Shown here: positions 1,243 to 20,730 of the stretch, piece by piece
Layout: every line of letters starts with the position of its first letter
How positions within the stretch are numbered: position 1 is the stretch's first letter
NCBI RefSeq assembly: GCF_000759025.1
Contig: NZ_JPOS01000090.1
Coordinates: forward strand, 1 to 64,000
From: Phaeodactylibacter xiamenensis
Lineage (GTDB): Bacteria; Bacteroidota; Bacteroidia; Chitinophagales; Saprospiraceae
Reading direction: 5' to 3'
Length of the DNA: 64,000 bases
Translations under genes and position numbers: made by a program
Notes under the pieces: generated by a model
Seen by the model: the letters and a program-made list of their open reading frames with translations, nothing else
The model's database searches: none
Told to the model about the DNA's origin: nothing

Positions 1243-3309
1243 ATGCTCTTTTTCCGCTTGTTTCTGGTCCTGACCATCGCCATACCATTGCGCGCGCAGG
1301 TAGACCCCCAAAATATCCAAATCGCCCGCGACCAATGGGGGGTGCCCCACATTTTTGCCCCTACGGATGCGGAAGTCGCCTACGGGCTCGCCTGGGCTTC
1401 TGCCGAGGATGACTTTCTCACCATGCAAAAGCAGCTGCTGCCCGCTAAGGGGCTGATGGGGCAGGTCTTTGGCAAACAAGGCGCTCAGCTTGATGTCATT
1501 GTGCACCTGCTGGGCGCAAGAAAAACGACCCGGGAGCGCTACACCACCGACCTCAGCCCGGATTTCCGAAAGATTCTCGAAGCTTATGCCGATGGGCTCA
1601 ACGCCTATGCCGCCAGGCACCCAAAGGAAGTCCTCCACCGCAAGCTTTTCCCGGTGGATGGGCAAGACCTCATTCCCTCCTACATGCTCGGGCTGGCACT
1701 GCTTTCGCAAATTGATGAACCCCTGGGCGCCATTTTCAGCGGGCGCATGGGGCAGGAAGTCAATCAGGAAAGAGGCTCCAATGCCGCCGCCGTTGCCCCC
1801 CATAAAACGACAACCGGCGAAACCTTCCTGCTCGCCAATTCCCATCAGCCCCTGGAAGGGCTTTACTCCTGGTACGAGGCCCATGTGTGCAGCGAGGAGG
1901 GCTGGAATATGCTGGGCGCGAATTTCCCGGGTGGTGTCAGCCTCTTCCTGGGTACCAATCCCTACCTCGGCTGGGCACATACGGTCAATTATCCTGACTT
2001 TACAGATATCTACAAACTGAAGATGCACCCGGAACGGAAACTGACCTACCGTTTTGACGGAAAATGGCTGGAATTGCAACCTGACTTTTACAAGGCACGC
2101 ATCCGGCTACTGGGCTTTCTGCCGGTAGGCAAAAAGCAGAAGTTCTACCAGAGCAAATACGGCATTACTTTCGAAACGCCCAATGGGTTTTTCGCCCTGC
2201 GCACGGTAGCCAATCAGACCATCAAAGCACCGGAGCAGTGGTACCGCATGAATAAAGCCCAAAATTGGGATGAATTCCGGGCGGCGCTGGACCTGCAGGG
2301 CATTACCTGTACCAACATCGTTTATGCGGACCGAGAAGGGCATATTTATCACCTCGGGAATGGGCTGCTGCCCAAACGAGACCCCAACTACGACTGGTCA
2401 GGCATACTGCCCGGCGACACTTCCGCCACCCTATGGGAGAATGACTTTTACCCGGTAGACCAGCTGGTGCAGGTACTTGACCCGCCTTCAGGTTATGTCT
2501 ACAACTGCAACCACACTCCCTTCCGGAGTACCGCTCCCGAAGACAACCCTGACACCACTGCCATACCGCCCCACATGGGTTACAAACGCCCCAACGACCT
2601 CACCAACCGGGGCGCCCGCTTCCAGGCTTTGATGCAGCAATACGATCAGGTAAGCTACGAGGACTTCAAGCGCATCAAGTACGATCAGGCTTATGAGCAG
2701 CCCATGGTAGCTGTACCCTGGTTTGAGCCCATATTCCATCTCAACCCTGATGATTATCCGGATATTCAGGAGCAAATCCGGCTGCTGCGGGATTGGGACC
2801 GGGTGGCAGATGCAAATAGCGAGGCCGCTGCCACGGCCATTCTTGCCTATTACCACCTGGAATCTGCGCTAAAATCCGGACAGTCGATGCTGGAACCGGG
2901 CACCCTTCCAGAGAAAGAGCTTGCGGAAGCCCTGCGATTCGCGCAGGAGCATTTCGTTAAGCACTTTGGGCAACCTACAGTTCGTCTCGGCAAGCTACAG
3001 CAGCACCGCCGGGGCGATATCAGCCTGCCTATGGGCGGCGGCCCGGATGTGCTCGCCGCAGTACGCAGTGAACTACAAAAGGATGGCCGCCTCCGCCCGG
3101 TTTCCGGTGATTCCTATATACAGTTTGTCCGCTACAGTGAGGAAGGGGTTCAAATTGAAAGCATCAACGCCTACGGGGCTTCCGCCCGCCCCGACAGCCC
3201 GCACTATACCGACCAAATGCAGCGCTTCACCAGCCAGGAACTTAAGCCGATGACGCTGGATAAGGAGGCGGTGCTAAACGGCGCGGTTCGGATTTATCAT
3301 CCGGAGTAG
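1243..3309 (+). CDS. penicillin acylase family protein (Ntn hydrolase)
   Basis: Secreted precursor of 688 aa. The signal peptide covers about residues 1-19 (ends LRAQ). The N-terminal segment IQIARDQWGVPHIFA is typical of the alpha subunit of the penicillin G acylase / AHL acylase family. The beta subunit should start at Ser179 in the motif ERG-S-NAAAV, which in this family is exposed by autocatalytic cleavage and acts as the N-terminal nucleophile. The oxyanion-region asparagine and the GWAHTVNYPD segment are also present. Such enzymes hydrolyse amide bonds of acylated amines (beta-lactams, acyl-homoserine lactones, acyl peptides); the substrate cannot be read from sequence. It stands alone, divergent from the 381-1058 gene and convergent with the hydrolase at 3318. 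Confidence 0.88.
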   Translation: MLFFRLFLVLTIAIPLRAQVDPQNIQIARDQWGVPHIFAPTDAEVAYGLAWASAEDDFLTMQKQLLPAKGLMGQVFGKQGAQLDVIVHLLGARKTTRERYTTDLSPDFRKILEAYADGLNAYAARHPKEVLHRKLFPVDGQDLIPSYMLGLALLSQIDEPLGAIFSGRMGQEVNQERGSNAAAVAPHKTTTGETFLLANSHQPLEGLYSWYEAHVCSEEGWNMLGANFPGGVSLFLGTNPYLGWAHTVNYPDFTDIYKLKMHPERKLTYRFDGKWLELQPDFYKARIRLLGFLPVGKKQKFYQSKYGITFETPNGFFALRTVANQTIKAPEQWYRMNKAQNWDEFRAALDLQGITCTNIVYADREGHIYHLGNGLLPKRDPNYDWSGILPGDTSATLWENDFYPVDQLVQVLDPPSGYVYNCNHTPFRSTAPEDNPDTTAIPPHMGYKRPNDLTNRGARFQALMQQYDQVSYEDFKRIKYDQAYEQPMVAVPWFEPIFHLNPDDYPDIQEQIRLLRDWDRVADANSEAAATAILAYYHLESALKSGQSMLEPGTLPEKELAEALRFAQEHFVKHFGQPTVRLGKLQQHRRGDISLPMGGGPDVLAAVRSELQKDGRLRPVSGDSYIQFVRYSEEGVQIESINAYGASARPDSPHYTDQMQRFTSQELKPMTLDKEAVLNGAVRIYHPE

Positions 3310-17667: not shown

Positions 17668-17828
17668 TATAGTTCTCCAAGGCAGGATTTGTGCAAAGTT
17701 GACGCAGGTATTTTTTTCGCTCGCAAGGCGAAAAACGCAGGCATCCGTACGGACGGCGAGGCTTTTCAACGCAGCGAGCGGAAAAAAGAGCAAGTCAAAA
17801 TGCATTAATCTCGCCTTGGAGAACTATA
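17668..17828. repeat. 161-bp palindromic intergenic element A
   Basis: Perfect 16-bp terminal inverted repeats, TATAGTTCTCCAAGGC (17668-17683) and its complement (17813-17828). Inside is a second nested pair (TTTTTTCGCTCG / CGAGCGGAAAAAA) enclosing the boxes CAAGGCG and CAACGCAG. Much of the arm sequence between the two pairs also matches, so the element could fold as one long imperfect hairpin. It has no credible gene; a 63-codon minus-strand frame across it has no coding features. The rest of the 17558-18051 gap holds nothing I can name apart from a small IR near 18018-18035 just upstream of the next gene. Compare element B at 45138. Confidence 0.75.
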
Positions 17829-18051: not shown

Positions 18052-18969
18052 ATGAGATTAGTACAACACAAGCAGGAAGCGTATTGGTTTTACCGCTTTC
18101 TATCCATCTTTTACGACAAAATTGTCAATCCGCTTTTCTGGACGGTCCCCATGCGGGACAAGGCGCTGCAGCTCGGGCAATTGGAGGAAACCGGTATTAA
18201 AGTTGTGGATGTAGGGTCGGGCACCGGCTTTAACACAGAGGGGATTGTAAAGATCGTCCCTCCCCAGCAGGTCACCTGTGTGGACCAAAGCCCGCACCAA
18301 ATGTCAAAGGCGAAAGCCAAGCCTGAACTACAGGGATGCACCTTCCTTCAGGGGGATGCCGAAAATCTTCCCCTGCCTTCCAATAGCTTCGACCGCTATG
18401 TCTCTGCGGGGAGTATCGAATACTGGCCAGACCCCGCCAAAGGCATACGCGAAGCCTACCGGATAGTGAAGCCTGGCGGGCTGGCACTGATGATTGGCCC
18501 TTTGGAGCCGGCTAATCCCGTGGGGCGGTTTATCGCAGAACTTTGGATGCTCTTTCCCAAAGAAGAAGAATACTGGCAATGGTTCCGGGAGGCAGGCTTT
18601 GAGGACCTGCAAGTCTGCTATGTCAAGCCGCAGTGGGTGGATGGCAAAGGGAAATATGGCATTGCACTGGCCGGCCGTAAACCGCTGACCGCAAACACAG
18701 GGCAACCCGAACCCCCTATACCTGAAACTGAGCCTGAACCTGAAAAAATGGGCCCGGGCAGGCGTTTGCTCATGATCCTCCGGGTACTGATTGGGTCGCT
18801 GGCAGGATTCCTTTTCATACCGGCAGCCCTGCTGGGCTACGTCCGCATGGCTTTTACTGATCAGTCGCATATCCCGGAAGCCGAGCGGGAGCGCCTCAAC
18901 CGGTATCAAATTGCGGCGCTGATCGTTACAGCACTAATGATCATCCTGCTTATTGCTTTGTTTCGGTAA
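18052..18969 (+). CDS. VTE3-like MPBQ/MSBQ methyltransferase (SAM-dependent, membrane-anchored)
   Basis: 305 aa. It shows the full pattern of plant-type 2-methyl-6-phytylbenzoquinol methyltransferase (VTE3): FYRFLSIFYDKIVNP, FWTVPMRDKAL, SAM motif I VVDVGSGTGF (51-60), VTCVDQSPHQMSKAKAK, GDAENLPLP, DRYVSAGSIEYWPDP (114-128), GIREAYRIVKPGG and ELWMLFPKEEEYWQWF. A proline/glutamate-rich linker (~212-235) leads to two C-terminal transmembrane segments (about 238-265 and 285-304), comparable to the membrane anchor of the plant enzyme. The reaction would be ring methylation of a prenyl-benzoquinol. It is first in an operon of three, 5 bp before a VTE4-like gene. A weak -7-like TATATTGA lies ~42 bp upstream of the ATG. 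Confidence 0.83.
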   Translation: MRLVQHKQEAYWFYRFLSIFYDKIVNPLFWTVPMRDKALQLGQLEETGIKVVDVGSGTGFNTEGIVKIVPPQQVTCVDQSPHQMSKAKAKPELQGCTFLQGDAENLPLPSNSFDRYVSAGSIEYWPDPAKGIREAYRIVKPGGLALMIGPLEPANPVGRFIAELWMLFPKEEEYWQWFREAGFEDLQVCYVKPQWVDGKGKYGIALAGRKPLTANTGQPEPPIPETEPEPEKMGPGRRLLMILRVLIGSLAGFLFIPAALLGYVRMAFTDQSHIPEAERERLNRYQIAALIVTALMIILLIALFR

Positions 18970-18974
18970 AACAA

Positions 18975-19838
18975 TTGATTCATACCGTAAAATCACTGCC
19001 CGTGCTCAACGACAAGATCGCTCATTTTTACGACCGCTCCACTCAGGTGTGGCTTGACACCTGGGGAGAACACATGCATCATGGCTACTACGGGGATGGG
19101 GCTTCCGCCAAGGACCACCGGCAGGCGCAGCTTGACCTGGTCAATGTGATGCTGGAATGGGGCCATGTTAAACAAGCAGACCGGATTTTGGATGCCGGCT
19201 GTGGCGTAGGCGGCAGCTCCCGGTATTTGGCGGAGAAACTGCAGGCAAAGCATGTCCTGGGCTGCACCCTGAGTACCGTACAGGCGGAGCGCGGCACCGC
19301 CTACAACCGGGAAGCAGCCCTAAGCACCATTGTCAAAACCGAAGCCAGAGATATGATGTCGCTCCGAGCTGAGGACGGCCCGTTTGACCTGGTTTGGTCG
19401 ATGGAAAGCGCAGAACATATTGAGGACAAAGCCCAAATGCTACAGTTGTTTTATGACTTACTGGCGCCCGGTGGCCAACTCCTCATGGCTACCTGGTGCC
19501 ACCGCGAAACCCCGCCGCCCCTGAACTCAAAAGACGAACATATCCTAAGCCGTATCCGGCATTTGTACCACCTTCCGCCTTTGGCCCCCTTGTCCGGGCT
19601 GCGGCAGGATGCAGAAAAAGCTGGTTTCACCGGTTTGCAAACGGAGGACTGGAGTGCTCAGGTAGCTCCCTTCTGGCAGGCGGTGATCCAGTCTGCCCTG
19701 AAACTGAAAAGCCTGAGTGGGTTGCTCAAAGCCGGCCTGCCTACCATTCGCGGTGCACTGGCCATGCGGCATATGACCCGGGGGTTTAAGCAGGGGACGA
19801 TCTGCTTTGGGGTTTTGCAAGCTCAAAAACCTGTGTAA
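18975..19838 (+). CDS. VTE4-like tocopherol/prenylquinol C-methyltransferase
   Basis: About 287 aa if started at the TTG at 18975, 5 bp after the previous stop; a GTG at 19002 is an alternative, and no ATG precedes the conserved part. It carries gamma-tocopherol methyltransferase hallmarks: IAHFYDRSTQVWLDTWGEHMHHGYYG (split here: FYDRST..W and GEHMHHGYY), SAM motif I ILDAGCGVGGSSRYLA (71-86), GCTLSTVQAERG, DLVWSMESAEHIEDK and LLMATWCHRE. It probably methylates the chromanol or quinol ring made by the neighbouring enzymes. It sits between the VTE3-like gene and the UbiA-type prenyltransferase, with 5-bp and 4-bp gaps, so co-translation is likely. Sarcosine/glycine or other small-molecule methyltransferases share motif I but not the GEHMHHGYY segment. 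Confidence 0.8.
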   Translation: MIHTVKSLPVLNDKIAHFYDRSTQVWLDTWGEHMHHGYYGDGASAKDHRQAQLDLVNVMLEWGHVKQADRILDAGCGVGGSSRYLAEKLQAKHVLGCTLSTVQAERGTAYNREAALSTIVKTEARDMMSLRAEDGPFDLVWSMESAEHIEDKAQMLQLFYDLLAPGGQLLMATWCHRETPPPLNSKDEHILSRIRHLYHLPPLAPLSGLRQDAEKAGFTGLQTEDWSAQVAPFWQAVIQSALKLKSLSGLLKAGLPTIRGALAMRHMTRGFKQGTICFGVLQAQKPV

Positions 19839-19842
19839 TCTT

Positions 19843-20730
19843 ATGATGGACTTCATCCGATTCAGCCGGCCGCATACGATCATTGGTACAAGCCTGAGTG
19901 TGCTGGCCCTTTACCTGCTCGCCCTCAGCTACGCGGGCAAAGCAACCGGAGACTGGAATATCTTCCTGACTGCCTGGGTCAGCTGCCTGGGTGCCAATAT
20001 TTTCATCGTTGGGCTCAATCAGCTGACCGATATCGAAATTGACCGCATCAATAAGCCTTACCTGCCGCTCGCATCGGGTGCTTACACTGTACGTACCGGA
20101 CAAGCCATTATTGGTATTGCACTATTTATTGCGCTGGCCCTTGCCGTGTACGGAGGGCCCTATCTGATGTGGACCGTTGGGCTGAGCTTGCTGCTGGGCA
20201 TTGCCTATTCCCTGCCCCCGTTGAGGCTGAAGCGGTTTCACTTCTGGGCCGCCTTCTGCATTATTGCGGTGCGCGGGCTAATTGTGAATCTACTTCTGTT
20301 CCTCCACTTTTACAATCAACTGAGCGGAGATACGGCACTTCCGCCCATCATTATCTGGCTCACTGTTGCCATTTTCATTTACGGGCTCATTATTGCCTGG
20401 TTTAAGGACATGCCGGATACGGCAGGAGATGAGGCCCACCGTATTCAGACCCTCTCCCTGCAAGTTGGCCTCCGGCGCGTATTTTGGATTGGCAACAGCC
20501 TGTTGGGCGGACTGTTTCTCTTGCTGGCCACTCTTCCTCTATGGGCTGACCTCCAGGTACATCATTTGCTCTTTGGCCTGGGGCACCTGAGCCTGTTATT
20601 GGGTTTTCTCCTCCTGGCCAGCCGGGTAGACCTCTCGGAAAAGGCGTCCATCATGCGCTACTACCAGGCCGTGTGGGGGCTGTTCTTTTTGGAATATGGC
20701 TTGTTCGCCACAGCCGGGTGGCTCGCCTGA
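19843..20730 (+). CDS. VTE2-like homogentisate prenyl/phytyltransferase (UbiA family)
   Basis: 295 aa polytopic membrane protein with about eight to nine hydrophobic segments. The first Asp-rich motif is NQLTDIEID (59-67) followed by RINKPYLPLASG; the second is KDMPDTAGD (188-196) followed by a Gln-x-Gly-Leu-Arg-Arg-Val-Phe-Trp segment. Both closely match the homogentisate phytyltransferase subgroup (NQLYDVxID, KPYLPLASG, KDIPDxxGD, RVFW) and differ from the menA/ubiA consensus. The enzyme would attach a phytyl or geranylgeranyl chain to homogentisate with decarboxylation, the committed step of tocopherol or tocotrienol synthesis. Two adjacent ATGs (19843, 19846) are possible starts. It is last of the operon; a strong hairpin follows. 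Confidence 0.84.
   Translation: MMDFIRFSRPHTIIGTSLSVLALYLLALSYAGKATGDWNIFLTAWVSCLGANIFIVGLNQLTDIEIDRINKPYLPLASGAYTVRTGQAIIGIALFIALALAVYGGPYLMWTVGLSLLLGIAYSLPPLRLKRFHFWAAFCIIAVRGLIVNLLLFLHFYNQLSGDTALPPIIIWLTVAIFIYGLIIAWFKDMPDTAGDEAHRIQTLSLQVGLRRVFWIGNSLLGGLFLLLATLPLWADLQVHHLLFGLGHLSLLLGFLLLASRVDLSEKASIMRYYQAVWGLFFLEYGLFATAGWLA

Follow-up and report, generated by a model that had tools for sequence, protein, structure and literature searches.

Can a bacterium that does not live by photosynthesis carry the genes for making vitamin E? The question is raised by three adjacent genes at positions 18052 to 20730 of a 64,000-nt stretch of the Phaeodactylibacter xiamenensis genome (contig NZ_JPOS01000090.1; "the window" hereafter denotes this whole stretch), the products of which are of the VTE3, VTE4, and VTE2 types. 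Phaeodactylibacter belongs to a group that is not photosynthetic. A first-pass annotation of the window had read the three genes as an operon for tocopherol-type prenylquinol synthesis, an interpretation that gains support from family scores, from conservation of the operon, and from co-occurrence of its genes across genomes. With a probability of roughly 0.7, we conclude that, in this nonphotosynthetic member of the Bacteroidota, VTE3-VTE4-VTE2 forms the central part of a pathway to tocochromanols (vitamin E-type compounds). The host genome (G000) comprises 7.87 Mb in 164 contigs and is 99.9% complete, with 1.7% contamination.

Structure of the operon and predicted identity of its products

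The three open reading frames (ORFs) are codirectional on the plus strand (18052-18969, 18975-19838, and 19843-20730) and are spaced by 5 and 4 nt with VTE4 taken from TTG 18975, bearing out the strand and the 4- to 5-bp gaps given at first pass. The first (18052-18969) encodes a 305-aa VTE3-type C-methyltransferase of 2-methyl-6-phytylbenzoquinol (MPBQ) and 2-methyl-6-solanylbenzoquinol (MSBQ), with an S-adenosylmethionine (SAM) methyltransferase domain and C-terminal hydrophobic stretches as a putative membrane anchor. The second (18975-19838) encodes a VTE4-type (gamma-tocopherol) methyltransferase, whose length is 287 aa if translation starts at TTG 18975 and 278 aa if it starts at GTG 19002, and the third (19843-20730) a VTE2-type homogentisate prenyltransferase of the UbiA family, 295 aa from ATG 19843 in an ORF open from TTG 19807. 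The VTE4 start may be GTG 19002, because the ORF begins at the counterpart of that codon in an uncultured Phaeodactylibacter metagenome-assembled genome (MAG; locus L087), the nearest of the named relatives (97% identity over VTE2). All motifs quoted in the first-pass annotation were located in the corresponding translations, i.e., SAGSIEYWPDP and MLFPKEEEYWQWF in VTE3, GEHMHHGYY in VTE4, and NQLTDIEID, KPYLPLASG, and KDMPDTAGD in VTE2. The C-terminal anchor that it had proposed for VTE3 corresponds to two hydrophobic stretches that end the protein (about residues 238-268 and 282-305).

VTE2 matched the NCBIfam equivalog model for homogentisate phytyltransferase (HPT), NF009525, at 347.2 bits (E 8e-104), 121 bits above the cutoff of 226, and the UbiA family model PF01040 at 121.9 bits. 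NQLTDIEID and KDMPDTAGD are its Asp-rich motifs. The chlorophyll synthase (ChlG) model gave 54 bits against a cutoff of 313, and MenA models gave no match at E 0.01; by family scores, the enzyme thus does not fall with MenA or chlorophyll synthase, the outcome that the first-pass annotation had named as fatal to its reading. A PHROGs scan of VTE2 also returned no match. Cyanobacterial HPTs are 43 to 50% identical to the window's VTE2. In a quick LG+G4 tree of 81 HPT-type rows, the Bacteroidota fall to the same side of a branch whose Shimodaira-Hasegawa-like approximate likelihood ratio test (SH-aLRT) support is 87%, below the starring level of 95, and for the cyanobacteria such a branch has 93% support; having no outgroup, the tree is silent on the direction of transfer and on the relation to MenA and ChlG. 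Computation shows VTE2 to belong to the HPT family, and its substrates would be homogentisate plus either phytyl diphosphate or geranylgeranyl diphosphate (GGPP).

VTE3 scored 81.6 bits against PF08241 and 62.5 bits against TIGR01934 (MenG/UbiE; cutoff, 158), and it fell under the cutoff of every MenG, UbiE, or MpqE model among the best 25 of its 30 matches, including the methyl-plastoquinone methyltransferase MpqE (28.5 bits; cutoff, 335). Its identity to Arabidopsis VTE3 is 54% over 219 aa, a comparison to be taken only as a lead, the Arabidopsis sequence used not being a database entry; the same Arabidopsis sequence is 46 to 55% identical to 33 of 34 VTE3 rows and 40% identical to the remaining, partial row. 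According to the title of a 2003 report by Cheng et al., plant VTE3 diverges strongly from its cyanobacterial counterpart. Excerpts of published work give a 62.83% identity between a red-algal VTE3 and that of Arabidopsis (PMC12649381) and describe a single hydrophobic C-terminal segment, the plant anchor, in olive VTE3 (PMC11911349).

VTE4 is 41 to 50% identical to the corresponding methyltransferase encoded near HPT in cyanobacteria, and in a tree of 59 rows a branch with 100% SH-aLRT support separates the operon and cyanobacterial VTE4 proteins from six family paralogues. Together with the subthreshold MenG/UbiE score of VTE3, this runs counter to the possibility, raised at first pass, that the two methyltransferases are UbiE/MenG or other small-molecule enzymes. 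VTE4 enzymes act on chromanols, not on open quinols, and the window's VTE4 would act on gamma- or delta-tocochromanol. Sequence searches of the PDB found no close solved relative of VTE3 or VTE4.

Conservation of the gene cluster

A set of named relatives, consisting of the best 80 of 150 encoded relatives, contained 41 operon-type and 12 divergent loci from Bacteroidota, 21 loci from cyanobacteria, and 6 from other phyla (three Calditrichota and one each from Chloroflexota/Anaerolineae, a Deltaproteobacteria MAG, and an Actinomycetota MAG). At the 41 operon-type loci, some of them on contigs that end early, VTE4 was present in 32 and directly upstream of VTE2 in 31, VTE3 was present in 29 and directly upstream of VTE4 in 25, and a geranylgeranyl reductase (GGR) gene and a small ferredoxin gene were each found in the operon in 16. 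Nine operon-type loci, all Neolewinella/Lewinella-like, had VTE2 alone on the stretch examined; in Neolewinella aquimaris, the VTE3-VTE4 and GGR-ferredoxin pairs lie ~5.5 kb from each other and ~430 kb from VTE2 on one contig.

The 21 cyanobacterial HPT loci, which served as a control, carried VTE4 in 16 cases, directly upstream of HPT in 14, with VTE1 nearby in 6 and HPPD nearby in 5; VTE3 of the window's type was found in none of these 21 stretches. At the six loci from other phyla, VTE4 was present in five, VTE3 in four, a VTE1-like gene in two (L106 and L117), GGR in two, and HPPD in one (L127). One of the Calditrichota loci (L106) has VTE1-like, VTE3, VTE4, VTE2, and GGR genes on one strand within 7 kb, and another (L117) has a cluster of VTE1-like, VTE3, VTE4, and VTE2 genes. 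HPPD adjoins VTE3-VTE4-VTE2 in the Anaerolineae locus (L127) and lies near the cluster in a further locus, L096. The HPTs of L106, a Calditrichaceae MAG, and of the Deltaproteobacteria MAG (L110) are closely related (branch lengths, 0.05 and 0.09), and the genes VTE4, VTE2, and GGR follow each other in this order at both loci; either one of the bins is mislabeled or the cluster has moved in recent times.

Distribution across phylum and family

HPT was detected in 2 of 395 genomes drawn across the phylum, and PF14249, the VTE1 family, in 11, both HPT genomes included. Within the host's family (248 genomes), HPT was found in 26 genomes, VTE3 (E ≤ 1e-25) in 23, and strong VTE4 (≥200 bits, the next best being 110 bits) in 24. 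PF14249 proteins are common in this family (108 genomes, 105 over the cutoff), mostly without VTE2. VTE2 and VTE3 occurred together in 22 family genomes (Fisher P = 2e-26), VTE2 and VTE4 in 23 (P = 4e-28), and a VTE1-family gene in 24 of 26 VTE2-positive versus 84 of 222 VTE2-negative genomes (P = 6e-8), P values that are too small because the genomes are related. VTE4 adjoins VTE2 in 21 of the 26 VTE2-positive loci, a VTE1-family gene is present in 23 of the 24 genomes with strong VTE4, and all four genes are found together in 21 of the 248 genomes. Conservation of the operon and genomic partnership of the VTE genes are thus shown by computation. There were individual departures from the pattern: VTE3 without VTE2 in G512, strong VTE4 without VTE2 in G420, and VTE2 without a VTE1-family gene in G529 (83% complete) and G537. 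The genome searches capped the number of first-look candidates that were scored in each genome (e.g., 9 of 13 in G000), so that single absences may be misses.

Geranylgeranyl reductase, ferredoxin, and the prenyl tail

In many relatives, the VTE3-VTE4-VTE2 operon is headed by a pair of genes encoding an archaeal-like GGR and then a 4Fe-4S protein of ~70 to 85 aa (L089, L092-L094, L096, L097, L099, L102, L103, L105, L109, L114, and others). The GGR from L089 has a PF22578 catalytic domain and scored 227 bits against TIGR02032 and 214 bits against the digeranylgeranylglycerophospholipid reductase model, below the latter's cutoff of 780. Digeranylgeranylglycerophospholipid reductase is an archaeal enzyme. 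In a comparison of 45 genomes, this operon-type GGR (profile A2) was found in 18 of 26 VTE2-positive genomes versus none of 19 VTE2-negative genomes that we had picked by hand (P = 9e-7). A tail-saturating step thus seems to be part of the pathway in many relatives. Among three genomes of the host's genus, it is present in G488 and was not found in G000, the host, or in G625; the window's organism may have lost the step, replaced it, or come to do without it.

The host also encodes a 245-aa DUF92 protein (161 bits) with no recognized pathway gene beside it, DUF92 being the family of the phytyl-phosphate kinase VTE6. DUF92 was commoner with VTE2 (11 of 26 versus 1 of 19 chosen VTE2-negative genomes; P = 0.005), and no such enrichment was seen in the same genomes for profile A3 (6 of 26 versus 4 of 19; P = 0.58), which matches no family model and is taken to be VTE5-like. 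Phytol salvage via VTE5 plus VTE6 was considered as the tail route of the window's organism and set aside, the DUF92 protein alone having been found, without recognized pathway neighbors.

A second HPT cluster type

The 12 divergent Bacteroidota loci (L146, L149, L150, L156, L157, and L160-L166; the same type occurs in G537 as L279) carried neither VTE3 nor VTE4 on the stretches examined. Eleven of them encode a protein of ~245 aa, from an undescribed family with almost no Pfam signal, a structural model of which (predicted local distance difference test [pLDDT] score, 87) matches SAM methyltransferases. Eight also encode a homologue of a VTE5-like/DUF92 fusion, where the part that we take to be VTE5-like has no matching Pfam model. 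Two of the divergent HPTs, those of L156 (306 bits) and G537 (265 bits), are over the NF009525 cutoff, and this second cluster type appears to be a variant of the same tocopherol-type pathway that is fed by phytol salvage and has its own methyltransferase. The MAG that holds one of these clusters (L163) bears the name Chryseobacterium gleum, perhaps in error.

Proposed pathway

The scheme that we propose follows the plant reaction order as given in excerpts of PMC12649381 and PMC7999835. HPPD would supply homogentisate, which VTE2 would couple to a C20 prenyl diphosphate (GGPP or phytyl diphosphate) with loss of CO2, giving the 2-methyl-6-geranylgeranylbenzoquinol (MGGBQ) or MPBQ quinol. VTE3 would then C-methylate the ring, the VTE1-like protein would close the chromanol ring, and VTE4 would add the final ring methyl group. 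The predicted product is alpha-tocotrienol or alpha-tocopherol, presumably a membrane antioxidant. In the 18 of 26 VTE2-positive genomes that have the ferredoxin-linked GGR, in many of them within the operon itself, this reductase would saturate the tail, so that the product would be alpha-tocopherol.

The first-pass annotation had noted that the window contains no gene for HPPD, a VTE1-type cyclase, or a GGR. A search of the whole genome supplied the first two, and no pathway-type GGR was found. HPPD is encoded outside the window (TIGR01263, 458 bits; cutoff, 277), and a 326-aa VTE1-family protein (PF14249, 84.5 bits; cutoff, 26.6) is encoded on a contig other than the operon's. An AlphaFold2 model of the latter (mean pLDDT, 93) is a beta protein with two-domain matches, its best solved matches (TM-scores, ~0.5 to 0.6) being a putative AttH, kievitone hydratase, and [4+2] pericyclases, a fold that fits ring closure without proving it; a PDB sequence search with the protein found no solved relative at E 0.1.

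Several observations weigh against the pathway or one of its steps. HPPD is also an enzyme of tyrosine catabolism. Four of the 26 VTE2-positive genomes lack VTE3 (G497, G537, G597, and G606), and the first three of these lack VTE4 as well. In the host's VTE1-like protein, the motif reads YIEKDWG, with D for the N of the YxEKNWG of photosynthetic cyclases (motif from an excerpt of PMC4963081). VTE1-family genes are also present in the 84 VTE2-negative family genomes mentioned above, in 81 of them over the Pfam cutoff; the proteins compared from 20 of these 84 genomes are 44 to 61% identical to the host's, versus 41 to 66% in VTE2-positive genomes, and YxEKDWG occurs in all 20, as does some form of FPxx[WY]x[WF]xQxN. 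The tree of VTE1-like proteins mixes VTE2-positive and VTE2-negative rows, with 11 label changes needed, i.e., clustered relative to a shuffled mean of ~19. As to the tail, the host genome gave no operon-type GGR at E 1e-30, its best GGR-like protein reached 81.6 bits with the BchP-ChlP model (cutoff, 343) and 200 bits with TIGR02032, and it had no match to the VTE5-like kinase profile A3 at E 0.001.

Because VTE2-negative genomes carry equally similar proteins with the same motif in a mixed tree, the VTE1-like protein may have another job, and its gene is weakened as proof of cyclization. For this reason, with a structural model that fits and does no more, and because the host is without the operon-type reductase and the VTE5-like kinase, ring closure and tail saturation are steps that we infer. 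The tail may be left unsaturated, be reduced by another GGR-family protein, or be salvaged. All substrates, the cyclization step, the tail, and the function of the product are thus predictions drawn from gene content.

Alternative explanations

Were the VTE1-like protein to have no part in the pathway, the operon could make an uncyclized, methylated, homogentisate-derived prenylbenzoquinol, resembling plastoquinone and acting as an accessory redox quinone or an open-ring antioxidant, with a changed VTE4 substrate. That the protein is not tied to the pathway would suit such a product, as would the methyl-plastoquinones that nonphototrophic Nitrospira make (excerpt of PMC12324825). Even so, we regard it as unlikely: two Calditrichota clusters place a VTE1-like gene near VTE3-VTE4-VTE2, the MpqE score of VTE3 is far below the cutoff, and VTE2 occurs in just 26 of 248 family genomes, from which we infer that its product is no general respiratory quinone of the family (MenA was not searched for). 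The chromanol specificity of VTE4 enzymes and the VTE1-family gene in nearly all genomes with strong VTE4 together favor a cyclized product.

A different meroterpenoid route, starting from another aromatic acid and leading by prenylation and C-methylation to a specialized metabolite, seems improbable. The substrate of VTE2 is a prediction from sequence, and the second cluster type, with its divergent HPT, unrelated methyltransferase-like protein, and kinase-like/DUF92 fusion, indicates that the family can be rewired. Against this stand the wide margin by which VTE2 passes the HPT equivalog model, the location of HPPD right next to the cluster in L127 and in its vicinity in L096, and the grouping of VTE4 with its cyanobacterial counterparts apart from paralogues. 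Finally, the possibility that ordinary menaquinone/ubiquinone genes (MenA/UbiA together with UbiE-type methyltransferases) have been taken for VTE genes, as membership in the UbiA and UbiE superfamilies might suggest, can be rejected with near certainty, given the MenG/UbiE/UbiG models far under their cutoffs among the matches listed, the failure of MenA models to match, the low ChlG score, and a rarity across the phylum unlike that of a core quinone gene.

Surroundings of the operon

Upstream of the operon lies a 28-nt inverted repeat (86%; 17668-17695 and 17801-17828, arms 105 nt apart), at the position where relatives such as L089 have GGR-ferredoxin; it is possibly a relict mobile element. 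A gene for a ~690-aa protein, matched by eye, is common to the window (1243-3309) and the L087 contig (201-2267). From its end to VTE3, the distance is 2.9 kb in L087 versus 14.7 kb in the window, whose longer interval contains several large secreted-protein-like ORFs.

Implications and comparison with known systems

According to the abstracts of reviews, vitamin E synthesis is restricted to photosynthetic organisms (PMC5745509 and PMC9515888); tocopherol synthesis is reported for Leishmania in an excerpt of PMC6443866. Among the matches listed in a search of the open-license literature, which leaves most subscription papers outside its scope, there was no report of tocopherol synthesis in Bacteroidota. 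The operon suggests that vitamin E-type molecules may arise outside photosynthetic life, and if the proposed pathway is correct, the reviews' statement would have to be widened. The pathway would also provide culturable carriers (e.g., Neolewinella aurantiaca, N. persica, and Flavilitoribacter nigricans) for studying the roles of tocopherols without photosynthesis, would add VTE3, VTE4, and GGR-ferredoxin of bacterial origin to the parts available for production, and would make the origin of plant VTE3 testable. A bolder and rather doubtful extension, offered tentatively, is that the ability to make vitamin E is ancient and mobile among bacteria; that de novo synthesis of tocopherols or tocotrienols takes place in heterotrophic members of the Bacteroidota, Calditrichota, and Chloroflexota, with a ferredoxin-linked archaeal-like GGR or phytol salvage for the tail; and that plant and algal VTE3, which is different from the cyanobacterial enzyme, came from such an operon and not from the plastid ancestor.

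The operon resembles the tocopherol genes of cyanobacteria in having a VTE4-type methyltransferase directly upstream of HPT, as in 14 of the 21 cyanobacterial loci. Unlike cyanobacteria, the Bacteroidota have a putative plant-type VTE3 and often an archaeal-like GGR plus ferredoxin, and the host's VTE1-like gene is unlinked. Tocopherol cyclase-like proteins have been described in heterotrophic bacteria, with their function given as unknown; the host's protein resembles that group in its PF14249 domain and recognizable motifs, and the excerpt in question mentions no VTE2, VTE3, or VTE4 partners for them (PMC4963081). The methyl-plastoquinones of Nitrospira are a parallel in that a plastoquinone-type molecule occurs in nonphototrophic bacteria; they differ in being the sole, i.e., respiratory, quinones found in Nitrospira (excerpt of PMC12324825), and the MpqE family is not matched here. 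With the plant pathway (VTE1-VTE4, HPPD, GGR/ChlP, and VTE5-VTE6), the host shares a VTE3 of plant layout with C-terminal hydrophobic stretches; it departs from that pathway in its bacterial operon, in the D-for-N motif of its VTE1-like protein, and in a GGR-like protein below the ChlP cutoff. What is new is thus the combination, in a heterotrophic phylum, of known families: a putative plant-type VTE3, a cyanobacterial-type VTE4-VTE2 pair, and an archaeal-like GGR with its ferredoxin.

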